64,000 bases of DNA from an uncultured Croceitalea sp. (GTDB lineage Bacteria; Bacteroidota; Bacteroidia; Flavobacteriales; Flavobacteriaceae). Below the pieces are notes generated by a model that saw only the letters and a list, made by a program, of their open reading frames with translations, was not told the origin of the DNA and searched no databases. The stretch lies in NCBI GenBank assembly GCA_947503285.1, contig CANNDD010000005.1, positions 124,001 to 188,000 on the forward strand, written 5' to 3'. Shown piece after piece: positions 10,262 through 32,652 of this stretch (position 1 is the first letter of the stretch; each line of letters starts with the position of its first letter). Position numbers and translations under genes: made by a program.

Positions 10262-10278
10262 CCAGAACGAATAAAGGT

Positions 10279-11599: not shown

Positions 11600-13702
11600 A
11601 TGAAAAAAAATAGCTTTGCTTTAGCTTATTTAGTATTGTGCGCATTCATTGTGTTATTATCATGCGATGATGACGATATTCCGGCCCAGGGCGTCATTCC
11701 GGTAAACCTGACTATTGATTCCAATGTATCCGCTGATGGTTCAGGGTTAGTGGAAGTCACTCCTTCCGCTGAAAATGCGGTTAGTTTTGTCGTTGATTTT
11801 GAGCCTGACGCAGATGCGGTCATTATAGCCCCTGGTGAGACGGCGTCATATCAATACACCCAAACTGGTGAAACCACGTATGAAATAACCGTAACGGCTT
11901 ATAGCCTTGGCGGTGGTAAGGTGAGTTCTACTATCACGGTTGGTTTAGAGGTACTTCCCGGTATTGATCCAGACATCTTACAGAAGTTGGCAGGTGATGG
12001 TGAAAAACGATGGGTTTGGGCACAAACTGTCGGGGGTCATTTTGGGGTAGGTCCTACTACAAATGATTTTCCTGAATTTTTCAGTGCTACCCCAAATTCG
12101 TTAAACCCTTGCCTTTATGATGACGTCTTGGTTTTTAGTTACGACGATAGTAACAATTTCACTTATACCTTGGAACCAGGATCAACTAATGAGGTTTTTA
12201 TCAATTGGACAGAAGTGAATCGCTTTTTTCCGGAAGCTACTCCACAACAATTCGTGGATGAGTGTCGGGACATTACCGACCAAGCTAGTTTTCAATCCGA
12301 GTTTACGGTTATCGAGAATGTTGATGGTACGCAAACCTTGGATATTGGAGAAAGCTTTTTAAGTTATTGGGCCGTAATACCCGGACAGTATCAGATTACC
12401 GAACTCACTGAAGATAGATTAGTAGTACGTGGAATAAGCCAGCCTTTTAATGGTGACGACCCCCTAGCTTGGTACAGCATTTTTACGCCAGAAGGTGAAA
12501 CAGGCGGTGGAGATCCTTTAGAGACCGCTTTTACAAATCTGGTTTGGTCAGATGAATTCGATACGGATGGTGCACCTGACCCGGGAAGTTGGACGTACGA
12601 TTTAGGTAATGGCGATAACGGGTGGGGCAATCAAGAACTTCAGAGTTATACCAGCGACCCAAGCAATGTGGTGGTCGAAGGAGGTAACTTAAAAATTACC
12701 GCCAGGTCTGAGGGAACGACTACGGATGGGATTTATTACTACGATGAATTTCAACTCGTTGATGCGGGTAATACGACCCAGGTCTTGGTAGAGGATTTTG
12801 AAAATGCCGCGCCTGCACTCAATAATTTTGGTGGTGGCTTTTCTGAGGTAATAGACAACCCCGATCCGACCGGTTCGAATACGACTGCAACCGTAGCAAG
12901 GTTTACAAAACCAATTGGTTCAGAAGTTTTTGCCGGGACCTCATTTGATGTTTCATCACCTTTAGACTTATCGACTACCAATCAAATCAGTATTAAGACC
13001 TGGTCACCTACCATTGGTACGGTGGTTAAATTGAAATTGGAGAACTCGGCAGATGCCGATAACCAGTCGTTCGAAGTGGATTTAAGCACTACGGTCATGA
13101 ACGCTTGGGAAGAGCTGGTCTATGATTTTAGCATGGCCCCGGACTTTTCTTACGATCGAGTGGTGATTTTCTTTGATTTCGGCAGCACGGGTTCTGCGGG
13201 CGCAGCGTATACCTCTGCGAGGATCAAGAGTGAAGGTCTTCAAGAATTTACCTATGGTCGGGTTGCTGCAAGGGCAAAACTCCCTACAGGAGGAGGTACT
13301 TGGCCGGCTATTTGGATGCTGGGTGCCGATTATTTGACGAATCCATGGCCAGCGGCCGGTGAAATGGACATTATGGAGCATGTAGGCAATCAACAAGATG
13401 TTGTTTTCGCCTCAACACATGACCCGAATAATTTTGCGGGAAATGCAAGAACTGGTTCTACTTTGGTCGAAGGGGCTTCCGATGAATTTCATCTCTACGA
13501 AATGGAATGGAACGAGACGGAGATTAAGTTTGCGGTAGATGGTATTGTTTATCATACGGTCAGTAATGATACATCCTTGCCATTCAACAAAGACTTTTTC
13601 TTTATTCTTAATGTGGCCATGGGCGGTACCTTTGGCGGTAACGTGGATGCGAACTTTACAGAATCTACAATGGAGATCGACTATATCAGGATGTATCAGT
13701 AA
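11600..13702 (+). CDS. GH16 beta-glucanase lipoprotein with a domain inserted in the catalytic module
   Basis: A 700-residue surface lipoprotein (lipobox LLSC then DDDD, a surface-export type signal), probably an endo-beta-1,3-glucanase. Domains: PKD-like (about 35-115); a ~170-residue module with GEKRWVWAQ and GGHFGVGP, often seen in flavobacterial glucan-binding lipoproteins; then GH16. The GH16 opening (LVWSDEFDTDG, GWGNQELQSYT) is separated from the remainder (YTSARIKSEG, TWPAIWMLGADY, catalytic GEMDIMEHVG with E588, D590, E593) by an extra ~160-residue beta-rich domain encoded at about 12715-13203. The inserted domain resembles the C-terminal domain of the tandem-CBM protein at 22431. 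First gene of the glucan locus, followed by a hairpin terminator. Confidence 0.9.
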   Translation: MKKNSFALAYLVLCAFIVLLSCDDDDIPAQGVIPVNLTIDSNVSADGSGLVEVTPSAENAVSFVVDFEPDADAVIIAPGETASYQYTQTGETTYEITVTAYSLGGGKVSSTITVGLEVLPGIDPDILQKLAGDGEKRWVWAQTVGGHFGVGPTTNDFPEFFSATPNSLNPCLYDDVLVFSYDDSNNFTYTLEPGSTNEVFINWTEVNRFFPEATPQQFVDECRDITDQASFQSEFTVIENVDGTQTLDIGESFLSYWAVIPGQYQITELTEDRLVVRGISQPFNGDDPLAWYSIFTPEGETGGGDPLETAFTNLVWSDEFDTDGAPDPGSWTYDLGNGDNGWGNQELQSYTSDPSNVVVEGGNLKITARSEGTTTDGIYYYDEFQLVDAGNTTQVLVEDFENAAPALNNFGGGFSEVIDNPDPTGSNTTATVARFTKPIGSEVFAGTSFDVSSPLDLSTTNQISIKTWSPTIGTVVKLKLENSADADNQSFEVDLSTTVMNAWEELVYDFSMAPDFSYDRVVIFFDFGSTGSAGAAYTSARIKSEGLQEFTYGRVAARAKLPTGGGTWPAIWMLGADYLTNPWPAAGEMDIMEHVGNQQDVVFASTHDPNNFAGNARTGSTLVEGASDEFHLYEMEWNETEIKFAVDGIVYHTVSNDTSLPFNKDFFFILNVAMGGTFGGNVDANFTESTMEIDYIRMYQ

Positions 13703-13719
13703 TAACACTGATTTTTTCT

Positions 13720-13749
13720 AAAAAAGGCCGGATTTATCTGGCCTTTTTT
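13720..13749 (+). terminator. Rho-independent terminator after the first GH16 gene
   Basis: An inverted repeat AAAAAAGGCC / GGCCTTTTTT with a 10-base loop, ending in a T-run, 17 bases after the GH16 stop. Its symmetry means it would also work on the other strand. It separates the GH16 gene from the regulator gene. Confidence 0.85.
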
Positions 13750-13844
13750 AATAAATGGACTTTGATGCCTTCCGTTGGAATCAAGAAAAGGACTGGTGAA
13801 AAAAATAAGCACAATACATTGAACTAAAGATTTTTTGATATGTA

Positions 13845-16652
13845 ATGGAAAGATGGGTGTCATGCTTTTTTAAAGTGTTTTTTTCGTTTTTGACCTTTGG
13901 GATGTATGCCCAAGAGCTGCCACCTATTCGAAATTATGCCCCCATTGAGTATAATGCCGAGAACCAGAATTGGAGCATTTCGCAAGCAGCTTCCAAACTA
14001 ATTTATGTCGCCAACAATAAAGGACTTTTAGAATATAATGGTGCCCGATGGAAATTATATCCTTCACCGAACGAGAGTGTTATAAGATCGGTTAAAACGG
14101 TTGGGGATGTCATATATACGGGCTGCTATATGGAGTTTGGATACTGGGAAAAAGACAATTTGGGCCAACTTCAGTATACCTCATTATCCCAAAAATTGGA
14201 AATCGATCACATCGAGGATGAAGAATTCTGGAATATTCATGCTATTGGTGATTTGATGGTCTTTCAATCTAAACGGGCAATTTACATAACCAACCTTGCT
14301 AAGGGTACGGTGAACAGAATAGCTTCGGATAATACCATTGGCAAAATGTTCAAAGTAGATCAAACCATTTATTTTCAAAGAATTGGCATCGGCCTGTATA
14401 AGATTGAATATGGTAGGGCCAAGCTTGTTACAGATCATCCGGCAGTAAAAACCGATGAGGTCATCAATATTTTTCAAGATGGTCGAAATCTACTCTTACT
14501 GACACAGAATAATGGTTTTTATACTTTAGATTCCAAGCTAACCCTAAATCAGGCTGAATTCACTTCGGCCCGGTTACTTTCCGATTACAGTTTCTATACG
14601 GCAATAAAATCAAAGGATGAAAAGTACATTTTGGGTACCATATCAAATGGGTTGATTTACTTAAATGAAGATGGGGTATTCGAGAAACAAATCAACCAAA
14701 CCAATGGCTTGATTAATAACACGGTTCTATCAATATATGAAGACGTAAGCGGTAGGCTGTGGTTAGGTCTTGATAACGGCATTTCTTTAGTGAACACAAA
14801 TTCCCCCTTCAGGGTCTTTGATGATAGTAAGGGAACTCTTGGAAGTATTTATGCTTCGGCTTTACACGACGATTTATTATATATAGGTACGAATCAAGGG
14901 CTTTTTTATAAAAGGGCGAATAGCAATGCTGCTTTTGAGTTTATAAAAAATACACAGGGACAAGTTTGGAGTTTGCAACTAATAGATGACACTTTGTTCT
15001 GTGGCCATCATTCAGGCACTTATATTGTAGAAAAAGAGAAGGTCAAAAAAATCGTGGATGTACCCGGTACATGGCGTATTTCAAAATTTGACAATAATCC
15101 TGACCTACTATTACAGGGTAACTATGACGGATTGTACGTATTGAAAAACGACCAGGGTTCTTGGGGCCTTCGAAATAAGATCAAGGGTTTCGGGAATTCC
15201 TCTAGGTATTTTGAGGTTTTTGAAAACAAGATTTTCATCAATCATGAGTATAATGGCATTTTTGAATTAGAAGTAGACCCATCTTTTCGAGAAGTGCAAG
15301 AGTTTAAGAAAGACACCTCTATAAGGGGAGCTAATTCCGGATTGGTAAAATACAGGGAAGATATTCTGTATGCCTATAAAAATGGAATTTTAAAATATAG
15401 TAGGGAAGAAGATAGGTTTGTAAGTGATAGCGTCTTGAATACCTTATATACCGAAGGGGATTATGAATCCGGAAAGTTGATTTTCAATGAGCGTGAAGAC
15501 GCGTTATGGGTTTTTACAAAATCAGGTATTTCTTGTTTGACCTATGACATACTATCCAACCAACCCAAAGTAAGTACGATTCCACTAGCTAACAATATCA
15601 GGAATGATGTTTTAGGATATGAGAACATGCTTCCATTAGGTGATGGAAAGTACCTTTTAGGAACAGCGTCTGGTTACATCGTATTGAACAATACCAATGT
15701 CGGGACCAAAAATTTCGAAGTACGACTTGGGGAGGTCATATTTGTCGATGCCCCCAGTTCAAGAACCAACAAAGACGTAAAGACTAAAGGTAGTTTTGAT
15801 AGCGGACCGAGTAGTATAGAAATTTCTTTTTACGTACCTGAATATTATAAGCTCTTGAATAAACAATATCAATACAGGCTAAGTGGATTTTATAATAATT
15901 GGAGCCCGTGGTCAGAAGATGATGTGGTCACTTTTGATAACCTACCCTACGGTGATTATACGTTTCAGGTACGAGGTAAGATCGGTAACAAGATTTCGGA
16001 AAATATCGGTGTGTACAATTTCAGCATTGCCAAACCTTGGTATATCTCTAACCTGATGTTGGGCATTTATGTCTTATCAGTGGTGTCGTTCTCAATACTT
16101 ATGCATACGATTTATAAAAGGTATTACACGCGTCAACGTGAAAAATTGATGGAACGGAATAAAAAAGAATTGGCTTGGAACAAAATTCAAAGTGAGAAGG
16201 AAATAATCAATATCAAAAATGCGCAATTAGAACTGGAAAATAAGGCGAAGAGTAAAGAACTGGCAGCTTCAACGATGAATATTATCAAAAAGAACGAACT
16301 ACTATCCAACATTAAGGATGAATTGTTGCAGATTGATCACAAAGAAACAATGAAGCCTGTGATTCAAATTATTGATAAAAATCTAAATCAAAATGATGAT
16401 TGGGAGTTGTTTCAAGAAGCTTTCAACAACACGGATAGCGGGTTTTTGAAAAAAATCAAAGAATTGCACCCGTCAGTATCACCAAGTGACTTGAAACTAT
16501 GTGTATACCTGCGCTTAAATCTTTCATCGAAAGAGATTGCCCAATTGTTGCATATTTCACCTAGAAGTGTGGAGATCAAGCGATATCGTTTGCGCAAAAA
16601 ATTAGAACTTCGACATGAAGATAATCTTGCAAACTACATTTTAGGTCTTTAA
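13845..16652 (+). CDS. Transmembrane one-component regulator (beta-propeller, Y_Y_Y, LuxR-type HTH)
   Basis: 935 residues. A signal peptide (residues 1-22, ending GMYAQ) is followed by a large periplasmic beta-propeller sensor (about 25-620, for example LSIYEDVSGRLWLGLDNGIS), a Y_Y_Y domain (about 655-745, YQYRLSGFYNNWSPWS), one membrane helix (about 750-770), a coiled coil rich in Lys/Glu, and a C-terminal LuxR-type helix-turn-helix (LRLNLSSKEIAQLLHISPRS). It has no kinase or receiver domain, so it would pass a periplasmic oligosaccharide signal directly to DNA. Its position inside the locus points to control of the glucan genes. The HTH tail distinguishes it from hybrid two-component regulators of PULs, which carry AraC domains. 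Confidence 0.9.
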   Translation: MERWVSCFFKVFFSFLTFGMYAQELPPIRNYAPIEYNAENQNWSISQAASKLIYVANNKGLLEYNGARWKLYPSPNESVIRSVKTVGDVIYTGCYMEFGYWEKDNLGQLQYTSLSQKLEIDHIEDEEFWNIHAIGDLMVFQSKRAIYITNLAKGTVNRIASDNTIGKMFKVDQTIYFQRIGIGLYKIEYGRAKLVTDHPAVKTDEVINIFQDGRNLLLLTQNNGFYTLDSKLTLNQAEFTSARLLSDYSFYTAIKSKDEKYILGTISNGLIYLNEDGVFEKQINQTNGLINNTVLSIYEDVSGRLWLGLDNGISLVNTNSPFRVFDDSKGTLGSIYASALHDDLLYIGTNQGLFYKRANSNAAFEFIKNTQGQVWSLQLIDDTLFCGHHSGTYIVEKEKVKKIVDVPGTWRISKFDNNPDLLLQGNYDGLYVLKNDQGSWGLRNKIKGFGNSSRYFEVFENKIFINHEYNGIFELEVDPSFREVQEFKKDTSIRGANSGLVKYREDILYAYKNGILKYSREEDRFVSDSVLNTLYTEGDYESGKLIFNEREDALWVFTKSGISCLTYDILSNQPKVSTIPLANNIRNDVLGYENMLPLGDGKYLLGTASGYIVLNNTNVGTKNFEVRLGEVIFVDAPSSRTNKDVKTKGSFDSGPSSIEISFYVPEYYKLLNKQYQYRLSGFYNNWSPWSEDDVVTFDNLPYGDYTFQVRGKIGNKISENIGVYNFSIAKPWYISNLMLGIYVLSVVSFSILMHTIYKRYYTRQREKLMERNKKELAWNKIQSEKEIINIKNAQLELENKAKSKELAASTMNIIKKNELLSNIKDELLQIDHKETMKPVIQIIDKNLNQNDDWELFQEAFNNTDSGFLKKIKELHPSVSPSDLKLCVYLRLNLSSKEIAQLLHISPRSVEIKRYRLRKKLELRHEDNLANYILGL

Positions 16653-16913: not shown

Positions 16914-19900
16914 ATGAACAAAAACTTTAAATGGGTACTCGGGCTAAGTTGTTTATTAGTTACAACAACAGTGCTCACTCAGTCGGCAAACGTGTCCGTT
17001 GTGAAAAATGAAATGGGCATGACGTTGATGGTAGACGGAAAAGACTTTATGGTGAATGGCATGAATTGGGATTACATTCCAATTGGTACGAACACCGTGA
17101 ATGCCCGTTTTTGGGAAAAATCAGATGATGTCATCAGGGCAGGATTGGATATTGAGATGCCCTTACTTCAAAATATGGGGGTGAATGTCATTAGGCAGTA
17201 CACTGGTGTTCCAGCACGGTGGATCAAATACATCTATGAAAATTATGGCATTTATACGATGCTGAACCATTCTTTTGGTAGGTATGGTCTTACATTGGAT
17301 GGTGTTTGGGTCGAAATCACGGATTATGCCAATCCACGAACCCAAGAATACCTTTTAACGGAAGTTGAAAAGTTGGTGACGGAGTATAAGAATACACCAG
17401 GGCTCTTAATGTATCTTCTTGGTAATGAGAATAATTATGGCCTTTTTTGGGCAGGGGCCGAAACGGAGGACTTTCCAGATGATGAAGAGGAAAAGAAGTT
17501 CATAGGCGAAAAAAGGGGGCGCCCTATGTATAAATTGATGAATGAGGCGGCCAAACGTATGAAGATGATGGATACCTCGCATCCAGTGGCAATCTGTAAC
17601 GGTGATGTGTTGTTTATCGACATTATCGCAGAAGAATGCAAAGATGTCGATATCTATGGTACGAATACCTACAGGGGTGTTTCTTTCGGTGACATGTTTC
17701 AAGAAGTAAAGGAAAAACTTGATATGCCCATTATGTTTACCGAGTTTGGGGCTGATGCATTCAATGCAATTGAGAATGAAGAAGACCAATATTCCCAAGC
17801 CTACTATATGGTCGGTAACTGGAAAGAGATCTATGAGAATGCCGCGGGTTTGGGTAAAGCAAATAATTCCATTGGGGGGTTTACCTTTCAGTTTAGTGAT
17901 GGCTGGTGGAAGTATGGTTTTGATGAACGAAAAAATGCGGATAGACATGACAACAACGCCTCTTGGTCAAATGGCGGTTATGCCCGAGATCTAGCCGCTG
18001 AAGGGGTGAACAATATGAACGAAGAGTGGTTTGGTATTTGTGCGAAAGGGCAGACCAGCTCAAGAGGTCTTTATGAATTGTATCCCCGTGCGGCCTACTA
18101 CGCGTTGAAAGAGGCACATCAATTGAATCCGTATGATGAAGGTGTTGATTTGGGTTTTATTCAAAATCATTTTGAAAACATTCAATTGACCGAGGCCGTG
18201 CTTAAGGCACGTGGTGACAAAGCCGCCTTAAGGGGTGAGCAAAGTAACCTACTTCGCATCAGTAATCTTACGGCGAGGTTTTCAACTTTCAGCACCGGTG
18301 GTAGTCTTATCACGACTCCTGAAAATCCGGATCCAGATGATCCATTGACATTTCCAAATCAATTGGGTTTTGATCATATGCAATCCTATTTTATAGGTGT
18401 TGAAGGCAACCCAGCTTCCAACATGCGTGCAGAAGTCAACTTGAACGTTGTCGGTAACGTAGCCCAAAACCCTATCAACGAGATTTTTTATGAGAATAGG
18501 GCCAGGCCGATAACGGTAAGCTCGCCAGATGGTAATGTGATATTGGCCGATAATAATCGGGTAGCGGTATATCAGGCCAAATTTGAATGGAATGCCAAGG
18601 AATTCGACTTAAGGGGGTTTTTCAGAACTGGGCATTACCATTGGGGTTATGAAGGGGATTTTTTCAATTTATATCGAGAAGCAAACTACGGACCGAACCT
18701 TGATATTTATAATGGCGAAACCTTAGGCGTTGAGATTGACGGTAAGGGTCCCTTAAAAGGGATAAAGGCCGTGATTGGACCCCAGATTTGGTGGGGGGCT
18801 AATCCGACGATGCTATACAAATACAGTACCGATTTAGGCAAATTCGGTATTTCAGGTATTTACCAGAGGGATTTTGAAACGGAGATTATATTGGATGATA
18901 ATGGGGTGCGGGTTTTAGACGCCAACCAAGTGGCAAGTGGTATTATCCCCCCGTTTCCTACCGAAAGGGCTACTATTGCCGTAGAACGCGAGTTCGGTAA
19001 ATTCGGGGTTACGGCAGGTGGAATATGGGCTGGTAGTCCTTTGAATGGCACGATATTCCAAGATGTTAGGGGTACCCCGGGTAACTACACGGTTTTTGAG
19101 GATAAGATTCAAGCAAGTGATAATTGGGGAGGTAAAGTCAAGGTCACTTATGAAGGGGGAAAGTTCAATTGGTACGGTCAAGCTGCGGCGATGGGATTGG
19201 TCGCTAGCGGTAGCGCAGATCAAACCTTGACCTTTACGGGTTGGAAGTTGAGGGATACCGGAAGTGGAAACCAAACAAATGTTCTTAGCGGTTTCACCTA
19301 TAGTACGGGAAACTTCCAAATTGCACCAAATTTTTTATGGCAAAAACCCTTGGTTGATCCAATACCGAATGATGTTCAAGGGCCAGGACGCTTACGAAAC
19401 GTTATCGATGACCCCTTTGCGGTTCGGGCAAATCGAGAGACCACCGGAGGGGAATTGTTGATTACCTACGACCCAACACCAGGTACTTGGATGTATGAAT
19501 GGGATAATGATAGGGCAGAAGATGCCAAATTTGCCATGAACCTGGGCTTTGTATACCGTCACCTACCAACGACCCAAGATGCGCATGTCGGATTCTTGGC
19601 CACGAGACAATTTTTTGCTTTTCCGAAATCTGTTCCAGCAGAGGATTTATGGGAGGTACATTCCAGAATGGTTTCCAAACTGGGTCCTGATTTAGGTATC
19701 ATTGGTAACTTTTATTACGGTAATGGACAAGGTAATGGTGATTCAGAACGATTGATCAGACGTTTCGGTGGAGATGTACGAATGATCTATAAAAAGTATA
19801 GACTACAGTTCACACAAAAGATCAACGATTGGGGCCCTTTTGATTACCATCGTGATTTTAACTTGACCTTTCCGGTACAATTGATGCTTGATATATCTAC

Positions 19901-20114: not shown

Positions 20115-20126
20115 AAAGAAACCAAA

Positions 20127-21542: not shown

Positions 21543-21552
21543 GGGAATGAAT

Positions 21553-22419: not shown

Positions 22420-22430
22420 AACAAGCTAAG

Positions 22431-25073
22431 ATGAAAAAATTGACAAAAAAGTTAAAACTCATTTTCACCCTGCTGTTGGCCATATCTTTTTTTGGATGCG
22501 ACGATGATGACGATAACCTACCCCAGGTAGTCGCGGGATTTACCTTTACCCAAAATATGGAAACGGGTACCGTGACCTTTATCAATATATCTGAGGAAGC
22601 GACCGCCTTTGAATGGGATTTTGGAAATGGGGCCACCTCCACGGAAGTGAATCCAATTTTCACCTTTAGCAACGGAACCTTTACAGTAACCCTGGAAGCT
22701 TCAAATGTCGCTGGCGCTTCAGCTACTTTTGAAGATGAAATTATCGTACAGGTAGCGGATCCAGATCCTGGTTTTGATGCAGGTTTATTGACCAACGGCG
22801 ATTTTGAAAATGGGACTGAACCATGGATTGGTGGAGGACTTAATATCGTTACGGAAGAAGACAATAGCTTCAACTCGGTCAACGTAGAGGTTGCCGGAAA
22901 CCCTTTTGATGTGAATTTAAGCCAGGTGGTCGAATTAACCCAAGGCACCAATTACATTTTAACCTTTGACGCTTCTGCCAGTGTCGCTCGTTCAATACTC
23001 GCAGGGATAGGGCTAAATGAAGCCCCTTTTACGAATAGTGCACCTGTGGTTGATTTAACTACTGAAACACAAACATTCACACTGCAACTTTCCGCTGCCG
23101 ATTTCGGTGGAGCGAATAGTCGTGTGCTCTTTGATATGGGTGCCGATGTGGGCACCGTTGTAATCGACAACGTATCCTTGGTAGAAGGCGGGGACGGCAG
23201 TGATACCAATGGGGGCGGAGGAGGCTTCGACTCGGGTCTGTTGACCAACGGTGACTTTGAGAACGGTGGCGACCCATGGATTGGCAATGCGTTGAATGTT
23301 CAGACCGAAGGAGGCAATAGTTTTAACTTTGCCGATGTTCAAACGGCGGGGGATGCTTTTGCCGTGAATTTGAGCCAAGTGGTGGAAATCACGCAAGGAA
23401 CAAATTATATTTTGACTTTTGATGCCTCATCCGATCAGGCACGAACGATGCTCGCGGGGATAGGGCTGAACGTGGAACCTTTCACAAATACGGCCCCTGA
23501 GGTTAACCTGACAACGGAGACACAGACATTTACCCTACAACTTTCCGCTGCCGATTTCGGCGGGGCGAATAGTCGTGTGCTCTTTGATATGGGCGCCGAT
23601 GTGGGCACCGTTGTAATCGACAACGTATCCTTGGTAGAAGGCGGGGACGGCAGTGATACCAATGGGGGAGGAGGAGGCTTCGACTCGGGTCTGTTGACCA
23701 ACGGTGACTTTGAAAATGGGACGGATTCTTGGATTGGCAATGCGTTGAATGTTCAGACCGAAGGAGGCAATAGTTTTAACTTTGCCGATGTTCAAACGGC
23801 GGGGGATGCTTTTGCCGTGAATTTGAGCCAAGTTGTTGAGATTACCCAGGGCACGAACTACATTTTGACTTTTGATGCCTCATCCGATCAGGCACGAACG
23901 ATGCTCGCGGGGATAGGGCTGAACGTGGAACCTTTCACAAATACGGCCCCTGAGGTTAACCTGACAACGGAGACACAGACATTTACCCTACAGCTTGCCG
24001 CGAACGATTTTGGAGGTGCGGACAGTCGTGTGCTCTTTGATATGGGTGCCGATGTGGGCACCGTTGTAATCGACAACGTATCCTTGGTAGAAGGCGGGGA
24101 CGGCAGTGATACCAATGGGGGAGGAGGAGGCTTCGACTCGGGTCTGTTGACCAACGGTGACTTTGAGAACGGTGGCGACCCATGGATTGGCAATGCGTTG
24201 AATGTTCAGACCGAAGGAGGCAATAGTTTTAACTTTGCCGATGTTCAAACGGCGGGGGATGCTTTTGCCGTGAATTTGAGCCAAGTGGTGGAAATCACGC
24301 AAGGAACGAATTATATTTTGACTTTTGATGCCTCATCCGATCAGGCACGAACGATGCTCGCGGGGATAGGGCTGAACGTGGAACCTTTCACAAATACGGC
24401 CCCTGAGGTTAACCTGACAACGGAGACACAGACATTTACCCTACAACTTGCCGCGAACGATTTTGGAGGTGCGGACAGTCGTGTGCTCTTTGATATGGGC
24501 GCCGATGTGGGCACCGTGGTCATCGACAACGTATCCCTAATTGAAGATACCAGTGGTGGTTCAGGTAGCGGAGTTACGGCACTATCTTCTTTACCTGCCG
24601 ATTTTGAAAATGGGGAAGAATTCAGTGCTGTTTTCGAACCAGCAAGCGTTAACGGTTCCATTACCGCAAATGTTGTCGCAGGTGGAATCAATACCTCACC
24701 TAACATTTATACTTTCAATAAACCTGAAGGGACGGAATTTTTCGGGGGTATGGAAAATGTTTTTACCACTCCGTTGGATTTGACTACGGCTAGAACATTT
24801 CGGGTACAGATTTATTCCACGAAACCAAATGTAGTCGTTCGGTTTGAGTTACAAACAAGGCCCGACGGTCCTAATTTTAGTATAGACCAAACGGTGGTCA
24901 ATGCAAACGAATGGGTTGAGTTGACTTTTGATTTTGGGCCGGTCACTAATGGGGACGCAGGCTTTAATCCGAATATATACAATGCTATAGTCATCATTCC
25001 TGATTTTGACCCGGCAAATGACCCAACAACCACTTCGGAAACCTATTACATCGACAATATAATCCTTGAATAA
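22431..25073 (+). CDS. Glycan-binding lipoprotein: PKD + four tandem CBM4-like repeats + C-terminal beta-domain
   Basis: 880 residues with lipobox FFGC followed by DDDDD. A PKD domain (about 30-105, AFEWDFGNGATS) precedes four copies of a 151-residue unit (about 114-717) that reads as a CBM4/9-type module: LLTNGDFENG, NLSQVVEITQGTNYILTFDA, RVLFDMGADVGTVVIDNVSL. CBM4 modules include beta-1,3-glucan binders. Gly-rich linkers (GGDGSDTNGGGGG) join the copies. The last ~160 residues form a different beta-sandwich ending TYYIDNIILE, related to the domain inserted in the GH16 of the first gene. No catalytic site is visible; it probably tethers glucan on the cell surface. 11 bases after the GH16 gene. 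Confidence 0.87.
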   Translation: MKKLTKKLKLIFTLLLAISFFGCDDDDDNLPQVVAGFTFTQNMETGTVTFINISEEATAFEWDFGNGATSTEVNPIFTFSNGTFTVTLEASNVAGASATFEDEIIVQVADPDPGFDAGLLTNGDFENGTEPWIGGGLNIVTEEDNSFNSVNVEVAGNPFDVNLSQVVELTQGTNYILTFDASASVARSILAGIGLNEAPFTNSAPVVDLTTETQTFTLQLSAADFGGANSRVLFDMGADVGTVVIDNVSLVEGGDGSDTNGGGGGFDSGLLTNGDFENGGDPWIGNALNVQTEGGNSFNFADVQTAGDAFAVNLSQVVEITQGTNYILTFDASSDQARTMLAGIGLNVEPFTNTAPEVNLTTETQTFTLQLSAADFGGANSRVLFDMGADVGTVVIDNVSLVEGGDGSDTNGGGGGFDSGLLTNGDFENGTDSWIGNALNVQTEGGNSFNFADVQTAGDAFAVNLSQVVEITQGTNYILTFDASSDQARTMLAGIGLNVEPFTNTAPEVNLTTETQTFTLQLAANDFGGADSRVLFDMGADVGTVVIDNVSLVEGGDGSDTNGGGGGFDSGLLTNGDFENGGDPWIGNALNVQTEGGNSFNFADVQTAGDAFAVNLSQVVEITQGTNYILTFDASSDQARTMLAGIGLNVEPFTNTAPEVNLTTETQTFTLQLAANDFGGADSRVLFDMGADVGTVVIDNVSLIEDTSGGSGSGVTALSSLPADFENGEEFSAVFEPASVNGSITANVVAGGINTSPNIYTFNKPEGTEFFGGMENVFTTPLDLTTARTFRVQIYSTKPNVVVRFELQTRPDGPNFSIDQTVVNANEWVELTFDFGPVTNGDAGFNPNIYNAIVIIPDFDPANDPTTTSETYYIDNIILE
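22770..24581 (+). repeat. Four tandem 453-base coding repeats
   Basis: Units begin at 22770, 23223, 23676 and 24129, an exact period of 453 bases (151 codons). Copies 2-4 are nearly identical in DNA sequence; copy 1 is diverged in its first two thirds but nearly identical in its last third. Variants are shared in a patchwork: copies 1 and 2 have LSAADFGGANSR, copies 3 and 4 LAANDFGGADSR, while copies 2 and 4 share GGDPWIG and copy 3 has GTDSWIG. Confidence 0.93.
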
Positions 25074-25074
25074 A

Positions 25075-25475
25075 ATGAAGAACGATGATGCGGCAGAAAA
25101 GGTGGCCCACGAAAGTATATTACCGTCTTTTTTCTTGGTGAAAGATGAAAAAAGATAACTGATATGGTCTTAGTGGCAATTTAAGAAGGAACATGGAAAA
25201 GACGACAAATACGGTTCAAATGAACAGGGCTTACGCCATTTTGATTAGCCTAATCGTTGCATTGGGTGTTTTTCGGTTACCTCTGTCTTTTCTTGGGAAT
25301 TAATGACCTTAGGACCGACGATAACTTTTAAAATCAACGCTGCGTTTTTCACTGCCAACCGTCGTTTCGATTTATAGGTTCATCATTAAAAACCAAAGGA
25401 AAGAAAGAAGGGCGAATAGAAGAAACCTAGGCAGTACTAATTGATCATAAAGTTTAAATATTTAAAAAAAATTGA
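25075..25475 (+). other. Gap between binding protein and phosphorylase; possible remnant coding
   Basis: About 400 bases without a convincing gene. It holds two short open frames: one of 27 codons from 25075 starting MKNDDAAEKVAHES, and one of 36 codons from 25193 (MEKTTNTVQMNRAYAILISL...) with a hydrophobic stretch resembling the first helix of a membrane protein. Both end abruptly. They may be scraps of a decayed gene, for instance a lost transporter, or chance. No terminator or clear promoter was identified. Confidence 0.4.
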
Positions 25476-28400
25476 ATGGATTACGTTCAAATCGGAAATG
25501 AGGGGTACTATAAAATAGAGAACAGCGATTCTTTGAGACCTTTTTTTATGAGCATCGTTAGTGATTCGAATCATTGGATGTTCATTTCAAGTAATGGAGG
25601 GCTGAGCGCGGGCAGAAAAGATAGGGACAATGCTATATTTCCCTATTATACCGATGATAAGATTACTGAATCATATGATACCACCGGCAGTAAAACAATA
25701 GTTCAAGTTGCCGATAGTAATGGGAAGAACGTAATCTGGGAACCATTTTCGAATAGATATACAGGGGTATTCAATACCACCAGAAACCTTTATAAAAATG
25801 AGTATGGTAATAAGATCATCTTTGAGGAAATCAATCATGATCTTGGTCTGAAATTTCAATATCAATGGAGTTCCAGCAATCGTTTTGGTTTTGTTAGAAA
25901 AAGTAAGCTAACCAATACTTCAGAAGCAAGTGTTGCCGTGAAAGTTTTGGATGGTATTCAAAACATTATGCCCTATGGGGTAGGTGCAAGCACCCAGCAA
26001 GCGAGTAGCAATCTGGTCGACGCTTACAAACGAAGTGAACTATTACAAGGTTCCCGATTAGGGATTTTTGCCCTTAGTGCCATTATTGTTGACAAAGCAG
26101 AGCCAAGTGAAGCCTTGAAAGCCAATGTCGTTTGGTCTATTGGTCTTGATACGGCTATGGTCTTACTATCATCCCTACAGCTCGATAAATTTAGAAAAGG
26201 GCTATCAGTGGTTCAAGAGGTTGATGTAAAAGCAGAGAAAGGGGCATATTTTGTCGTGACCAATTTGAACCTGGGTCCAAGACAAGAAAGAGAATGGGCT
26301 ATCGTCGCTGATGTGAACAAGAGTACTGCCAAGGTGATTAGCCTATCAGAGCAGCTGAAATCGAATAAAAAATTATGGTCTGAGGTTTTTGATGATGTGG
26401 CAATAGGCACCCATAATTTATTGAAACTTACCAATGCTGCGGATGGCAAGCAATTGACAGCTGATAAAAGAAGCAATACAAGGCATTACGCGAATGTAAT
26501 GTTCAATATAATGCGTGGTGGAATTTTTGATGCCAATTATAGCGTTGAAAAAGACGATTTCGTAACCTACATCCGCAAAGCGAATACGAATGTTTTTACA
26601 GCCAATAAGAAGACATTGGAAAACTTGTCTGATAGGTTTACTTATGAAGAGCTACAAAAAATTGCTTCTGAAAGTGATGACAAAGACTTTAGTAGGCTAT
26701 GTTTGGAATATTTGCCATTGAAGTTTAGTAGAAGGCACGGTGACCCAAGTCGGCCATGGAACCGATTTTCGATTAACACCACTACCGAAGACGGCAAGAA
26801 AATATTGGATTATGAGGGTAACTGGCGCGATATCTTTCAAAATTGGGAAGCTTTGGCACATTCATATCCCGAGTTTATCAAAGGCATGATTTTTAAATTT
26901 TTAAATGCCACTACATTTGACGGGTATAACCCTTACAGGGTTACAAAAGACGGTTTTGATTGGGAGACTATCGAGCCAGACGACCCATGGTCTTATATCG
27001 GGTATTGGGGTGATCATCAAATTATTTACTTATTGAAGTTTTTGGAGTTCTCAGAGAATCACTATCCAAAGCTTTTAGAACGGTACTTCACTGAAGATAT
27101 CTTCGTGTATGCCAATGTACCCTACACTATCAAAGGGTATCAATCAATTTTAAAAGACCCAAAAGATACTATCGAATTTGATGACGGGTTGAATAGGGCA
27201 ATTTGTAAAAAAAGAGCTCGACTTGGTTCAGATGGCGCACTTCTGACCAATGCCCAAAATGAAATTTACAAAGTCAATCTAATTGAGAAACTGTTGGCCA
27301 CCCTATTGGCAAAATGTGCCAACCTTATCCCAGAAGGTGGAATCTGGATGAATACCCAAAGACCGGAATGGAACGATGCCAACAATGCCCTTGTTGGTAA
27401 CGGGGTATCAATGGTGACCTTGTATTACATGAGAAGGTTCTTTGTTTTTTTTAAAGGATTATTGGCTGGTAGTAATATGGGGGCCTTACCACTGTCCAAT
27501 GATTTGAAAGTACTTTTTGATCAGGTCTTGCGGGCATTTGATTCTTGCAGCCAATTAGCTCAAAAAGGTTTTTCAGATAAGGAACGAAAAAGGATAATGG
27601 ATGATTTAGGAACTGCTGCTGGCGATTACCGTTCCTTTATTTATGAAAATGGATTTTCAGGCAAAAAGGCCGCCGTAAAAAAAGAGGATATTCTAGAATT
27701 TGCAAAACTTGGTATAGCGGTTCTAAATCAATCGATTGCAATCAATAAAAGGCCTGACGGATTATTCCATGCCTATAATTTAATGACGGTTCGCAATGAT
27801 CAAGAGGTTTCCATTTCACACCTAAGTGAAATGTTGGAGGGCCAAGTAGCCGTTCTTAGCTCTGGTTACTTGTCTGCAAAAGAAAGTCTGGCCGTTTTAG
27901 ACAGCATGAAAAACAGCAAACTGTTTCGTGACGATCAGTATAGTTATTTGCTTTACCCAAATAAGGAATTACCGCATTTTATAGCGCGTAATACCATTCC
28001 GCAAAGTGTGGTCAAAAATTCGGATCTTCTAAAGCGTTTGTTAAAAGAGGGGAATACCCAGGTCATCGAACAAGATGTTAACGGTGCCTATCATTTTAAT
28101 GGTGATTTCAACAATGCAAATAGTTTGGCGAATGCCCTTGAAAATCTTGATGCCACCTACCAAGATTTGGTCGCCAAAGAGCGAGGTCAACTCTTAACGG
28201 CTTTTGAAGAAGTGTTCAATCATAAGGCATTTACGGGCCGATCGGGTACTTTTTATGGTTATGAGGGTTTAGGGTCAATTTATTGGCACATGGTATCGAA
28301 GTTGTTACTCGCGGTTCAGGAGACAAGTTTAAAAGCCATGGAAACCAATGGGAATGAAGAAATTATAGGAAGGCTTCTAGAACATTACTATGAGATAAAT

Positions 28401-28883
28401 GCAGGAATAGGGGTGCATAAATCCCCTGAGCTGTATGGAGCCTTCCCTATAGATCCCTATTCCCATACACCAGCGGGTAAAGGGGCTCAGCAACCGGGAA
28501 TGACAGGGCAGGTCAAGGAGGATATCTTGAGTAGGTTTGGTGAACTTGGTGTTTTTGTGAACGATGGTAAATTAAATTTTGCGCCTTCCCTATTACAAGA
28601 AAAAGAGTTTTTAAAAGAGTCATCGGCTTTTGAATATGTGACTACTCACGGAAAATTCGAGAAACAGCAGTTAGAAAAAGGTTCTTTGGGTTTTACTTAT
28701 TGTCAAATACCGATAATCTATAAAATTTCAGGGTATGAGGGCATGACCGTTTTTTTAGATAATGGTTCTTCCTTAGAATTTGAAGGGTTGGTGCTGGATC
28801 GTGCCGTAAGCACTATGGTGTTTAAAAGAACGGGTGAAATACAAAAGATTGAGGTTGCCCTTACAAAAAATAAAATGCGATAA
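25476..28883 (+). CDS. Cytoplasmic beta-1,3-glucan/oligoglucan phosphorylase, GH149-like
   Basis: 1135 residues without signal peptide, so cytoplasmic. Size and motifs fit the large clan GH-Q phosphorylases (GH149 or GH161, relatives of GH94): the central block NTQRPEWNDANNALVGNGVS carries the likely general-acid aspartate (D634), and SGRSGTFYGYEGLGSIYWHM-type sequence (TGRSGTFYGYEGLGSIYWHM) and GAFPIDPYSHTPAGKGAQQP form further active-site blocks. These enzymes release glucose 1-phosphate from the non-reducing end of beta-1,3-glucans, conserving bond energy. The N-terminal ~270 residues match the beta-sandwich domain of the clan. Lies 7 bases before the GH17 lipoprotein gene. GH149 versus GH161 cannot be settled by eye. 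Confidence 0.82.
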   Translation: MDYVQIGNEGYYKIENSDSLRPFFMSIVSDSNHWMFISSNGGLSAGRKDRDNAIFPYYTDDKITESYDTTGSKTIVQVADSNGKNVIWEPFSNRYTGVFNTTRNLYKNEYGNKIIFEEINHDLGLKFQYQWSSSNRFGFVRKSKLTNTSEASVAVKVLDGIQNIMPYGVGASTQQASSNLVDAYKRSELLQGSRLGIFALSAIIVDKAEPSEALKANVVWSIGLDTAMVLLSSLQLDKFRKGLSVVQEVDVKAEKGAYFVVTNLNLGPRQEREWAIVADVNKSTAKVISLSEQLKSNKKLWSEVFDDVAIGTHNLLKLTNAADGKQLTADKRSNTRHYANVMFNIMRGGIFDANYSVEKDDFVTYIRKANTNVFTANKKTLENLSDRFTYEELQKIASESDDKDFSRLCLEYLPLKFSRRHGDPSRPWNRFSINTTTEDGKKILDYEGNWRDIFQNWEALAHSYPEFIKGMIFKFLNATTFDGYNPYRVTKDGFDWETIEPDDPWSYIGYWGDHQIIYLLKFLEFSENHYPKLLERYFTEDIFVYANVPYTIKGYQSILKDPKDTIEFDDGLNRAICKKRARLGSDGALLTNAQNEIYKVNLIEKLLATLLAKCANLIPEGGIWMNTQRPEWNDANNALVGNGVSMVTLYYMRRFFVFFKGLLAGSNMGALPLSNDLKVLFDQVLRAFDSCSQLAQKGFSDKERKRIMDDLGTAAGDYRSFIYENGFSGKKAAVKKEDILEFAKLGIAVLNQSIAINKRPDGLFHAYNLMTVRNDQEVSISHLSEMLEGQVAVLSSGYLSAKESLAVLDSMKNSKLFRDDQYSYLLYPNKELPHFIARNTIPQSVVKNSDLLKRLLKEGNTQVIEQDVNGAYHFNGDFNNANSLANALENLDATYQDLVAKERGQLLTAFEEVFNHKAFTGRSGTFYGYEGLGSIYWHMVSKLLLAVQETSLKAMETNGNEEIIGRLLEHYYEINAGIGVHKSPELYGAFPIDPYSHTPAGKGAQQPGMTGQVKEDILSRFGELGVFVNDGKLNFAPSLLQEKEFLKESSAFEYVTTHGKFEKQQLEKGSLGFTYCQIPIIYKISGYEGMTVFLDNGSSLEFEGLVLDRAVSTMVFKRTGEIQKIEVALTKNKMR

Positions 28884-28890
28884 TAAGCAT

Positions 28891-30177
28891 ATGATCATGA
28901 AGAACTTCCATAGAATAATGAATTGTATCATACTACTCATCATGGTTTCTTCATGTAAAAATGCCACTAAATCAGAAGGTAAGACCATTTCAGTGAAGCA
29001 AGAAATCAATAGAACGGCAAAAGAAATTTTAGGTAACCCTGATTATTTGGCAATTTCTTATGGGGGCTACCGTCATGTGGATCATGGTATTGAACCAACC
29101 ATTTCAGAGCTTAAAGAAGATATGAGGATTCTTGCCGCGATGGGAATCAAAATTTTACGTACCTACAAAGTACATTTTCCGCACGCAGCTAACGTATTGA
29201 AGGCCATACGTGAACTGAAAAAAGAAGACCCTGATTTTGAAATGTATGTAATGCTGGGTGCTTGGATAGATTGTAAAAATGCATGGACGAATCTAGAACC
29301 TGACCACTACCAAGAAAGTGGGCGCAATGCCACTGAAATAGAAGAAACTGTTCGATTGGCCAATAAATACCCAGACATCGTTAAGATTATTGCGGTAGGT
29401 AATGAGGCCATGGTAAAATGGGCCACAAGTTATTATGTACAACCTGGGATAATCTTAAAATGGGTCAATCATTTGCAAGATTTAAAACAATCGGGAAAAT
29501 TATCTAAAGACCTTTGGGTGACCAGTTCTGATAATTTCGCTTCGTGGGGAGGCGGCGATGGTGGGTATCATGTTGAAGATTTGAATAAGTTGATTGCCGC
29601 TGTAGATTTCCTTTCCATTCATACCTACCCCATGCATGATACCCATTATAATCCTCAGTTTTGGGGAATTCCAGAATCGGAAAAAGACATTTCGGATATT
29701 GAAAAGATAGAAGCTGCCATGCTGAGGGCCAAAGAATATGCCATGTCGCAATATAAAGGGGTTTCTAATTATATGAAAAGTTTGGGTATTGATAAACCAA
29801 TCCATATTGGGGAAACGGGATGGGCGACAACCTCTAATGGGTATTATGGCGCTGAGGGCTCAAAAGCAACGGACGAATATAAAGAGGCATTATATTATGG
29901 GCATATGAGGGATTGGACCAATGCCGAGGGTATTTCATGCTTTTATTTTGAAGGGTTTGACGAACAATGGAAAGACGCTGCCAACCCTTTGGGTTCTGAA
30001 AATCATTTTGGATTGATAAACTTAAGGAGTGAGGCAAAATTCGCCCTTTGGCATTTGGTGGACAAGGGGCTCTTTGAGGGCCTCAACCGAAACGGTAAAC
30101 CTATCACAAAAACATTCAACGGCGATAAAGAAGCATTGATGAAAGAAGTATTGGTGCCACCTTACAAACATGAATGA
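28891..30177 (+). CDS. GH17-type beta-1,3-glucanase or transglycosylase lipoprotein
   Basis: 428 residues from ATG 28891 (ATG 28897 also possible); signal peptide with lipobox MVSSC. Single TIM-barrel domain: opening YLAISYGGYRHVDHG, LGAWIDCKNAWTN, acid/base E172 in AVGNEAMVKW, SIHTYPMHD, nucleophile E308 in IHIGETGWATTSNG, and CFYFEGFDEQWKD near the end. This is the GH17 pattern (GETGW) known for beta-1,3-glucanases and glucanosyltransferases. Because the lipobox is not followed by an acidic surface-export run, a periplasmic location is likely. It would shorten oligosaccharides entering through the outer membrane. Confidence 0.85.
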   Translation: MIMKNFHRIMNCIILLIMVSSCKNATKSEGKTISVKQEINRTAKEILGNPDYLAISYGGYRHVDHGIEPTISELKEDMRILAAMGIKILRTYKVHFPHAANVLKAIRELKKEDPDFEMYVMLGAWIDCKNAWTNLEPDHYQESGRNATEIEETVRLANKYPDIVKIIAVGNEAMVKWATSYYVQPGIILKWVNHLQDLKQSGKLSKDLWVTSSDNFASWGGGDGGYHVEDLNKLIAAVDFLSIHTYPMHDTHYNPQFWGIPESEKDISDIEKIEAAMLRAKEYAMSQYKGVSNYMKSLGIDKPIHIGETGWATTSNGYYGAEGSKATDEYKEALYYGHMRDWTNAEGISCFYFEGFDEQWKDAANPLGSENHFGLINLRSEAKFALWHLVDKGLFEGLNRNGKPITKTFNGDKEALMKEVLVPPYKHE

Positions 30178-30279
30178 ACTTTAAGTAAAAGGCATTTTTG
30201 GACATAGGTGAACTCAAATAACGAAAATAGACCAACAAAATTATCATAACCTAAAGTACCACCCACTAATCAAAAAACT

Positions 30280-32652
30280 ATGAGTCAAGCAAAAACACTT
30301 TCAAAGAACAGGGTCCCTTTTGGGCAAAAAATCGCTTTCGGCATTGGTATGTTGGCCAATCAAATGTTTCCTGCCATATTGGGCATATTCATGGTAGTGT
30401 TGGTGCAAGATCTGGGTTTTCCTGGTTGGATGTGGGGAATACTATTTTTCTTACCAAGAATATTTGATTGCTTCACCGACCCTGTAATGGGTTTTATTTC
30501 AGACAATACCAAGTCAAAGTGGGGTAGGCGAAGACAGTACGTTTTCATTGGCGCCCTTCTTATGGGGATTTCATTCGTGATCATGTGGCAATTATATCGT
30601 GAAAACGGTTTAGATTATAATTTTACATATTTCTTATTGTGGTCATTTGTGTTCTATTTGGGTATTACCATTTTTGGCGTTCCTTATGTGGCTATGGGTT
30701 ATGAGATGAGCAATGACTTTCATGAACGAACTGATATTATGGCCATTGCGCAATGGATAGGACAATGGGCATGGGTGATTGCCCCTTGGTTTTGGGTCAT
30801 TATGTATGATGAGGGCTGGTTTGCGTCAGCGGAAATCGCGACAAGGGAGCTTTCTATCTGGGTAGGTATTGGCTGTATGTTGTTTGCAATGGTTCCCGCT
30901 ATTTTTATAAAAAGCGAATCAACGATCAATGCCGATTATTCACCGTTGACCATCAAAAATATTGGTGGCAGTTTAAAGGAAATTGGAAAAGGATTCAAAG
31001 AAGCATTCCGATCCCAACCTTTTAGACAGCTATGCATAGCTACATTTTTGATTTACAATACGTTCTATACCATTGCCAGTTTCTCGTTTTTTATTGTGGT
31101 GTATTATCTTTTTGGTGGCGATGCCGGAGCGGCCGGACTTTGGCCAACACTTTTTGGTAGCGTAGGGGCTTTGGCCACCACTTTTATCGTAATTCCAATT
31201 ATTACGGCAATGTCCAAAAAGATGGGGAAAAAGAAGGCCTTCATAATTTCGCAGGCCATCTCCATAATCGGCTATATTATGCTCTGGTTTTTGTTCATTC
31301 CCGGAAAGCCTTATATGTTCTTGTTCGCATTACCCTTCTTTTCTTTTGGTATCGGAAGCCTCTTTACCTTAATGATGTCGATGACCGCGGATGTTATCGA
31401 TTTAGATGAGCTGAATACGGGGCAGCGCAGGGAAGGGGTATTTGGGGCGATTTATTGGTGGATGGTAAAATTTGGATTTGCAATAGCAGGGGGATTGACC
31501 GGTGTCATCATGTCCGCCGTTGGATTTAACCCTGATTTAGCGACACAACCCGAAGGAGCGGTTTTAGGATTGAGGATATTTTACTCCGGTTTCCCGATTA
31601 TTGGTACGTTGATAGCCATCTACGTGATGTGGAACTATGATTTAACCGAAGAAAGGGCAAACGAGATAAGCGAGGCATTGGAAAAGCGAAAAGGCATGAA
31701 AGGTTCTGGGTATCAACAAACGGGATTGCTTTCGAACGTCAATTTTGAAGAAGTTACGGAAGCTGATTTCAACATAAAACACCCTGATTTTTTCACTACC
31801 AAAGTTGATTTTACAAGCATGCCCCTGAAAGCTCTCAAAACGGAATTCCAAACCGTTTTCAATAAGGGAATGTCAGGCATCTGTTTTAGTGCTTACAAAG
31901 TGGGCCAAGAACCTGGCGACCCCATAACTGAAATGCAGATTAGGGAGCGACTTAAAATCTTAAAACCCCACACACAATGGATACGCATTTTTTCTTGTAC
32001 CAATGGGCATGAGAGTATCCCTAAAATTGCCAAGGAAATGGGACTTAAAACCTTGGTCGGTGCTTGGTTGAGCGATGATTTGGAAGAAAACAAAGCTGAA
32101 ATTGAAGCGCTGATAACCCTGATGAAAAACAACTTAGTTGATATTGCGGCCGTAGGGAATGAAGTGCTTTATCGGGGAGAACTGAATGATGAAGTCATCA
32201 TTGAATATATTCGAGAGGTCAAGAAAGAAGCAAAACATGTTCCTGTTGGTTACGTAGATTCTTACTATGAATTTGCAAATAGGCCACACTTGACTGCCGA
32301 ATGTGATATCATACTAGCCAACTGCTATCCATTTTGGGAAGGAGCCGATATTCGAACTTCAGGTTTTCACCTTCAAGAAATGTATCGCAACACATTGAAG
32401 GCAGCGCAGGGCAAAAGGGTAATCATAACTGAAACTGGCTGGCCAAGTAGGGGAGAAGTCGTTGGTGCGGCAGTTCCTTCTGAAGAAAACGTATTGCAGT
32501 ATTTTATAAAAACACAACTGTGGGCAGCGCACGAAAAGGTCGACATGTTCTATTTCTCTTCTTTTGATGAATCTTGGAAAATACATTTCGAGGGTTGGGC
32601 AGGTACTTCATGGGGCTTATGGGATGTCAATGAGGACTTCAAATATCAGTAG
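30280..32652 (+). CDS. GPH-family sugar:cation symporter fused to a C-terminal GH17 domain
   Basis: 790 residues. Residues ~15-470 are a 12-helix MFS protein of the glycoside-pentoside-hexuronide (MelB-like) family, with the diagnostic GFISDNTKSKWGRRRQYVF loop and DVIDLDELNTGQRREG. Residues ~500-790 are a GH17-type TIM barrel: FQTVFNKGMSGICFSAYK, acid/base E628 in AVGNEVLYRGE, nucleophile E718 in IITETGWPSRGE, and FYFSSFDESWK. MFS C termini face the cytoplasm, so the enzyme domain should act on sugar as it emerges, next to the cytoplasmic phosphorylase. There is no stop or frameshift between the parts; the reading frame is continuous. Last gene of the glucan locus. Confidence 0.88.
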   Translation: MSQAKTLSKNRVPFGQKIAFGIGMLANQMFPAILGIFMVVLVQDLGFPGWMWGILFFLPRIFDCFTDPVMGFISDNTKSKWGRRRQYVFIGALLMGISFVIMWQLYRENGLDYNFTYFLLWSFVFYLGITIFGVPYVAMGYEMSNDFHERTDIMAIAQWIGQWAWVIAPWFWVIMYDEGWFASAEIATRELSIWVGIGCMLFAMVPAIFIKSESTINADYSPLTIKNIGGSLKEIGKGFKEAFRSQPFRQLCIATFLIYNTFYTIASFSFFIVVYYLFGGDAGAAGLWPTLFGSVGALATTFIVIPIITAMSKKMGKKKAFIISQAISIIGYIMLWFLFIPGKPYMFLFALPFFSFGIGSLFTLMMSMTADVIDLDELNTGQRREGVFGAIYWWMVKFGFAIAGGLTGVIMSAVGFNPDLATQPEGAVLGLRIFYSGFPIIGTLIAIYVMWNYDLTEERANEISEALEKRKGMKGSGYQQTGLLSNVNFEEVTEADFNIKHPDFFTTKVDFTSMPLKALKTEFQTVFNKGMSGICFSAYKVGQEPGDPITEMQIRERLKILKPHTQWIRIFSCTNGHESIPKIAKEMGLKTLVGAWLSDDLEENKAEIEALITLMKNNLVDIAAVGNEVLYRGELNDEVIIEYIREVKKEAKHVPVGYVDSYYEFANRPHLTAECDIILANCYPFWEGADIRTSGFHLQEMYRNTLKAAQGKRVIITETGWPSRGEVVGAAVPSEENVLQYFIKTQLWAAHEKVDMFYFSSFDESWKIHFEGWAGTSWGLWDVNEDFKYQ

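Follow-up and report, generated by a model that had tools for sequence, protein, structure and literature searches.

A gene cluster of an uncultured Croceitalea sp. encodes a glycosidase joined in one reading frame to a predicted outer-membrane barrel, with a lipoprotein, LP471, as the next gene. This conserved glycosidase/outer-membrane-barrel protein with its constant lipoprotein neighbour is likely what is new in the locus, and apparently neither the absence of SusC/SusD (SusCD) as such nor the transporter–GH17 fusion is. The cluster was analysed within a window of 64,000 nucleotides (the whole stretch of DNA under study, G000:C5:124001-188000); computation established which genes it holds, that the fusion exists and is conserved, that LP471 is its constant neighbour and that the window has no SusCD. 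We give an even chance to the reading that this is a laminarin/beta-1,3-glucan locus in which the outer-membrane step would be taken by the enzyme-fused barrel instead of SusC/SusD.

Organization of the locus

Window positions 11600–32652 hold nine ORFs, all on the + strand (eight genes and a GPH–GH17 fusion). ORF calls and family scans agree on this set, as an earlier sequence-only reading had listed it, and the beta-glucan locus proposed there was borne out as one of the beta-1,3-glucan type. The first gene (11600..13702, +) encodes a 700-aa GH16 lipoprotein (GH16a; PF00722) with a putative acidic surface-type lipoprotein signal, followed by a 935-aa Y_Y_Y/propeller/LuxR-type regulator (13845..16652, +; Pfam family scan), of which a homologue lies near the fusion in 47 of the 53 Flavobacteriaceae loci with at least 9 kb upstream. 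The 1066-aa fusion (16914..20114, +; PF02836 and structural models) comprises a GH-A enzyme (residues ~23-440) and a predicted barrel (~447-1066). LP471 (20127..21542, +), which has a central Big_2-like domain, a weak match in the family scan, and weak CBM11- and discoidin-like matches, is followed by a second GH16 lipoprotein (GH16b, 21517..22419, +; PF00722) and a lipoprotein with a PKD and four CBM4_9 domains and a surface-type signal (22431..25073, +; Pfam family scan). The remaining genes encode a GH149 beta-1,3-glucan phosphorylase (25476..28883, +; NF058639, PDB 6hq6), a GH17 lipoprotein of the FbGH17A type with a non-acidic, periplasm-type signal (GH17A, 28834..30177, +; PDB 6fcg), and a GPH symporter fused to a GH17 domain of the FbGH17B type (30280..32652, +; PF13347 and PF00332). 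GH16b and GH17A probably start at the ATGs at 21547 and 28891, each directly after the stop of the previous gene.

The fusion, LP471, GH16b and CBM4 genes are closely joined, with gaps of 12 and 11 bases and of about 4 with the later GH16b start. Between the CBM4 gene and GH149 lie 402 bases, and a scan of window positions 25000-25600 found two promoter-like sites against 1.7 expected and no terminator. The same gene order recurs in many relatives, so the arrangement is not due to chance. Within the CBM4_9 lipoprotein gene, positions 23067-24536 form a tandem repeat of 453 bases (3.2 copies, 94% matches), that is, near-identical binding modules from recent internal amplification. A 203-aa protein that had no Pfam match (33040-33651) follows the transporter; it is conserved behind the transporter in a genome of the same genus (G176) and precedes the regulator in L033 and L141.

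A glycosidase fused to a predicted outer-membrane barrel

Residues 82-293 of the fusion match the GH2 TIM-barrel family PF02836 at 26.2 bits against a cut-off of 21. No other GH2 domain was matched in the protein, including the beta-sandwich domains that would precede the TIM barrel, and the model leaves about 25 residues between the TIM fold and the signal-peptide-like start, which was read directly from the sequence. Among the fold matches listed, GH158 laminarinases lead (Z 26.4), with GH2, GH5 and GH157 tied within about 1. Against the GH158 structure PDB 6pal the profile match has E=1.4e-5, yet no single stretch passes. Across 32 sequences Glu172 and Glu277 do not vary, and their motifs align with the acid/base and nucleophile motifs of 6pal (BuGH158), which in passages of PMC7157763 requires N136, E137 and E220 for activity. 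The enzyme is modelled as a GH158/GH2-like fold.

AlphaFold2 modelling of the whole fusion gave a TIM barrel followed by strands, at weak confidence (pLDDT 67.8, pTM 0.46), and residues 441-1066 folded alone (18234..20111, +) gave a predicted barrel of 26 strands by count (pLDDT 72.8, pTM 0.73). The underlying alignments are shallow (63-82% identity), so the strand count and the domain orientation may change. The barrel's Foldseek matches were for the most part barrels of the outer membrane, among them MOMP, TonB-dependent receptors, AlgE and ushers, with mitochondrial VDAC/Tom40 ranked lower, and VIA-align placed PapC/FimD first among the matches listed (Z 14.9, 363 residues aligned, rmsd 4.6, 10% identity). 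The predicted model has the features of an outer-membrane barrel, namely an even number of amphipathic strands with long loops and tight turns on opposite sides: the median gap is 26 residues after odd strands vs 2 after even ones (p=1.4e-4), the alternation of strand hydrophobicity is 2.19 vs a maximum of 2.09 among 2000 shuffles, and inward faces are 28% charged vs 7% for outward faces, a comparison that is partly circular because the faces were set by hydropathy. No Pfam family was found for the barrel of the window copy, and a scan of 71 relatives returned only DUF6882, in two of them (best E 0.042). TonB plug families had no match in the fusion at E<=0.01, its N-terminal part being the GH-A enzyme. 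On the modelled fold, the barrel very probably sits in the outer membrane. That the only barrel-like protein of the locus carries its own glycosidase, as the sequence-only reading had supposed, holds for a GH-A enzyme and a barrel of predicted outer-membrane type. No title or abstract opening among the openly licensed PMC papers searched reported an outer-membrane barrel with a glycosidase joined to it.

The tight turns of outer-membrane barrels are usually periplasmic. By this rule both barrel ends, and hence GH-A, would lie on the periplasmic side, and we consider a periplasmic location of the enzyme probable. The opposite placement would make the barrel an autotransporter-like device that displays GH-A at the cell surface, the products entering through other porins or SusCD. 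In autotransporters the passenger precedes the barrel, as GH-A does here, and the classical type has 12 strands. Display would also fit the helices that the model places directly before the first strand, the GH16 surface types that make up the other catalytic lipoproteins with acidic signals, and a locus (G199) in which GH-A is fused to GH16 in place of the barrel. Against it stand the 26 predicted strands vs the 12 of classical autotransporters, and the fact that G176 and G258, whose GH-A proteins have no barrel, show the same pre-barrel helices; the helices therefore belong to the enzyme, which weakens the case for an autotransporter-like linker. We judge surface display unlikely and retain a periplasmic GH-A as the preferred reading.

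LP471 and the localisation of the lipoproteins

Relatives were collected from named genomes, in which, among the matches listed, 565 of 590 stretches encode one; the best 80 of at least 565 were taken. Among these, LP471 adjoins the fusion in 75 of the 75 loci whose downstream DNA reaches 1.6 kb or more; 70 were scored by script and the other five from gene order. It is likewise present in 53 of 53 Flavobacteriaceae loci with at least 9 kb upstream and in 20 of 20 further loci of the family. Outside Flavobacteriaceae it follows the fusion in 20 of 20 loci, with GH16b next in 17 of the 20.

Of 25 LP471 members, 19 match Big_2 and one has a weak CBM11 match, which would fit a glycan-binding surface protein. 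Matches in the PDB were to CBM-type and discoidin domains, at E values of 0.08-0.4 only, and the SusD family was not among the matches of the 25 members at E<=0.05.

Acidic residues after the lipobox cysteine mark surface export in Bacteroidota. Localisation was therefore scored as the mean number of D/E at positions +2 to +7 after this cysteine, in samples that overlap, with some genes counted twice, and after exclusion of rows with no recognised lipobox (46 for LP471, 35 for GH16b, 17 for CBM4, 15 for GH16a, 16 for SusD and 31 for GH17A). The means were 2.76 for LP471 (111 rows), 2.36 for GH16b (113), 3.80 for the CBM4 protein (49) and 3.27 for GH16a (41), with SusD at 2.66 (29 rows, surface control) and GH17A at 0.71 (52 rows). 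LP471, both GH16s and the CBM4 protein are accordingly predicted at the surface, and GH17A in the periplasm.

The phosphorylase, GH17 enzymes and transporter

The GH149 protein scores 1779 bits with NF058639 (cut-off 1150) and 1558 bits with PDB 6hq6, and GH17A matches PDB 6fcg at E=1e-190; both assignments are strong. In the last gene a GPH/MFS domain and a GH17 domain follow one another in one frame, the arrangement of an MFS–GH17 fusion of the FbGH17B type. Clean versions of this fusion (at least 780 of 790 residues matched, no internal stop) occur in 17 of 299 Flavobacteriaceae genomes, and in several other genomes of the family the transporter and GH17 are separate neighbouring genes. In a simple hydropathy scan of the transporter fusion, membrane-like segments numbered 10 instead of 12 and all lay ahead of residue 452. 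The topology of the MelB family is known and, taken with a Formosa homologue of 12 helices, would turn the GH17 domain towards the cytoplasm. The helix number comes from the excerpted parts of PMC6246565, in which the fusion itself is already described: the inner-membrane transporter does carry a glycosidase, as the sequence-only reading had claimed, and the arrangement is not new. No GH30 was found in the window's own genome with PF02055; the step that GH30 takes in relatives is therefore missing from view there.

The nearest PDB entry of the transporter's GH17 domain is a beta-1,3-glucanosyltransferase (4wtp), and MlGH17B is reported as a transglycosylase in passages of PMC13188888. Together with the reversibility of glucan phosphorylases (passages of PMC5827456) and the presence of AlgE among the Foldseek matches, these points could be read as a locus that makes and exports beta-glucan, with GH149 running in reverse, GH17 acting as a transglycosylase and the barrel as exporter. 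We consider this very improbable: family scans found no glycosyltransferase among the nine proteins, the locus carries GH16/GH17 endoglucanases and a sensor-type regulator, and the related Formosa laminarin genes are laminarin-induced according to the same excerpts of PMC6246565.

Presence and absence of SusC and SusD

The sequence-only reading had found no SusC/SusD in the window, and both searches agree: none of the five PF07980 matches of the genome falls within it, and tblastn with five SusC and six SusD found no relics there at E<=1e-3. The window thus holds no SusC/SusD pair of the kind that defines a canonical PUL, and it has the composition of a SusCD-lacking cluster (GH149, GH16/GH17 and a transporter, no SusCD). 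Genome-wide (4.34 Mb in 29 contigs) there are five SusD genes, the nearest 67 kb past the window end on the same contig. In 19-kb stretches round the five, no ORF of at least 200 aa matched any of 12 locus and flank reference proteins at E<=1e-4. Ten neighbours were scanned and included GH65, galactose-1-phosphate uridylyltransferase, FG-GAP proteins and others, with no beta-glucanase among the ten. At two of these loci (L111 and L115) SusC/D pairs stand beside FG-GAP/UnbV_ASPIC proteins of ~1100 aa, and one locus has GH65 and a LacI-type regulator.

Relatives were searched with profiles built from the six SusD and five SusC of the window's genome and G176, which could miss remote ones. SusCD were found in the same cluster, upstream, in 28 of 72 Flavobacteriaceae loci (19/53 and 9/19), and, among the best 80 named loci of at least 565, SusD with SusC in 17 of the 60 that reach 9 kb or further upstream; the two samples overlap in genomes. 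Outside Flavobacteriaceae, neither this SusD profile nor PF07980 had a match within 20 kb in any of 20 loci (nearest ~27 kb), and three genomes with the locus (G542, G361 and G347) had no PF07980 or PF14322 match at all.

The 28 of 72 family loci rule out two stronger formulations, that the gene set is always SusCD-free in flavobacteria, a point that the sequence-only reading had proposed to check, and that barrel and SusCD are mutually exclusive. A SusC/D pair in the same regulon elsewhere and required for growth on the same glucan had been named in advance as refuting that reading, and the pairs in the same cluster go part of the way there. The barrel is thus not a simple substitute for SusCD. 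The claim of a parallel uptake route is partly borne out: in its favour are the 0 of 20 loci with SusD within 20 kb outside the family, and set against it are the same family count and G176, which has SusCD and neither barrel nor LP471.

The same count, and the five SusD genes of the window's genome, would suit a barrel that is a passive helper or anchor, a general porin with a tethered enzyme, while laminarin is imported by SusCD in the cluster or elsewhere. Weighing against this are the surroundings of the genome's own SusD genes, devoid of locus homologues and of any scanned beta-glucanase, and the three genomes that have the locus and no SusD match. We hold the passive role to be unlikely, to the same degree as surface display.

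Distribution, barrel loss and module exchange

Searched against 299 Flavobacteriaceae genomes, the whole fusion matched 95 at E<=0.001, many of them through GH-A only at ~30% identity. With a barrel profile, 35 of 395 genomes drawn from the phylum gave a match; the near-complete matches, from Flavobacteriaceae and ten other families, lay inside frames of 1028-1084 aa in 33 of 33 cases, and GH-A was confirmed with the barrel in all 20 annotated loci outside Flavobacteriaceae.

Triosephosphate isomerase and prmA genes at window positions 9512-11106 flank the locus, as they do in relatives L137-L139, L143, L160, L167, L195 and L237. This common flank points to a locus that kept its chromosomal position through changes of its outer-membrane module. 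G176 has the flank and the order YYY-SusC-SusD-GH16-GH16-GH-A-GH149-GH17A-GPH; its GH-A stops at about residue 438 and retains the catalytic motifs, the barrel and LP471 are absent and the GPH is unfused. A further genome of the genus, G726, has the barrel and no SusCD at the same flank. The nearest relatives of the window's GH16a are GH16s of SusCD-bearing loci (63% identity in G176, 57% in L071), a kinship hinting that the window lineage once had, or borrowed from, a SusCD-bearing module.

G258 also has SusCD and no barrel; there the match passes the protein's stop codons to residue 450, which is perhaps a remnant. In G199 (L119/L192), a SusCD-bearing locus, GH-A is fused to GH16 instead of the barrel. 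Barrel-less GH-A loci (G176, G258, G199) thus have SusCD in 3 of 3 cases vs 28/72 with the barrel, a difference that is not significant (p=0.067); a fourth case, G048, was excluded because its contig ends inside the gene, and including it gives p=0.022 on 53 loci. A quick tree places the barrel-less GH-A sequences at separate positions among barrel-bearing ones, with SusCD scattered, which suggests repeated barrel loss; 31 of its 89 inner branches are open, G176 and G199 sit on long branches, the contig-cut G048 is included, and the tree was used for label scatter. Other loci that have no barrel (L124-L126, L128-L136) carry a GH2_C-like enzyme of ~335 aa, ~30% identical to GH-A, beside GH17A, and L125 has a sub-threshold match to GH72 glucanosyltransferases.

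Proposed mechanism

Surface lipoproteins (the two GH16s, the CBM4 protein and LP471) would bind and cut the glucan, and the barrel, partnered at the surface by LP471, would let the resulting oligosaccharides through. GH-A, tethered at the periplasmic mouth, would trim incoming chains, and GH17A would cut these to still shorter ones in the periplasm; the GPH symporter would import the products, and the cytoplasmic GH17 and the GH149 phosphorylase would convert these to glucose and glucose-1-phosphate. That the barrel is a pore for beta-1,3-glucan oligosaccharides, and with it transport, substrate and an LP471–barrel complex, we infer from these assignments; the physical coupling of hydrolysis and transport proposed by the sequence-only reading would follow in the same way. 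We lean slightly towards an importer role of the barrel, counting against it that TonB receptors and SusD are found close to the laminarin genes of Formosa (passages of PMC6246565) and that the window's genome has five SusD loci.

More tentatively, and at somewhat less than even odds, the GH-A/26-strand barrel and LP471 may constitute a second class of Bacteroidota outer-membrane glycan importer that needs neither SusC/SusD nor, possibly, TonB and whose own periplasmic glycosidase would make entry irreversible; it would be the older outer-membrane step, to which SusCD were added repeatedly in Flavobacteriaceae, replacing it in a few lineages. In Bacteroidota, SusC/SusD pairs are the usual sign of glycan uptake across the outer membrane, and surveys of genomes rely on them to locate the corresponding loci. 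Because this laminarin-type locus occurs in many families, mostly without SusCD and also in genomes with no SusD match, some users of laminarin can escape such surveys. Were an outer-membrane pore indeed joined to a glycosidase, hydrolysis and import would be tied together in a new way. Barrel alone, barrel with SusCD and SusCD alone form a natural set inside one family, even one genus, and make the question directly testable by gene deletion.

Comparison with known systems

GH149, the FbGH17A-type GH17, the MFS–GH17 fusion (2018) and SusCD-lacking GH149 clusters are already known. The paper that described the fusion in Formosa considers it common in marine Flavobacteriia and reports GH17A as endo-acting and GH17B as exo-acting on laminarin, with laminarin-induced GH149/GH17/GH30 genes near TonB receptors and SusD (passages of PMC6246565). 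Compared by that description, the Formosa laminarin PULs share GH149, GH17A, GH16 and the MFS–GH17 fusion with the window, which has in addition the GH-A/barrel fusion and LP471 and lacks SusCD and, in its genome, GH30. The laminarin PUL reported in 2026 for Muricauda lutaonensis (LuxR regulator, GH2, GH16, GH149, GH30_1, MFS, GH17A and GH17B; parts of PMC13188888) is nearly the same as the window cluster, with one gene there named a GH2 beta-glycosidase. In two strains of that paper (L038 and L049) the barrel fusion lies on the contig that it cites, and its GH2 gene seems to be the GH-A/barrel fusion; the terms 'susd' and 'outer membrane' do not occur in its main text. CAZyme clusters with GH149 and GH16/GH17 and no SusCD are already in PMC5827456, and PMC10108472 has a laminarin cluster with no susCD in one MAG; the passages available of these two papers name no outer-membrane replacement for SusCD.

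The GH158 endo-laminarinase BuGH158 (6pal; passages of PMC7157763) resembles GH-A in modelled fold and in the alignment of the catalytic motifs; GH-A, a predicted glycosidase, differs in its ~20% identity, in lacking the Ig-like domain and in being fused to a barrel. Among the solved barrels listed, the pilus ushers PapC/FimD come nearest in size and in alignment over the whole length, at 9-11% identity and with no pilus genes in the locus, so that only the large-barrel arrangement is common to both. The fusion differs from SusC in having an N-terminal enzyme instead of a matched plug, and LP471 from SusD in having no SusD match; what the pair shares with SusC/SusD is an outer-membrane barrel with an adjoining surface lipoprotein, in the role proposed here.
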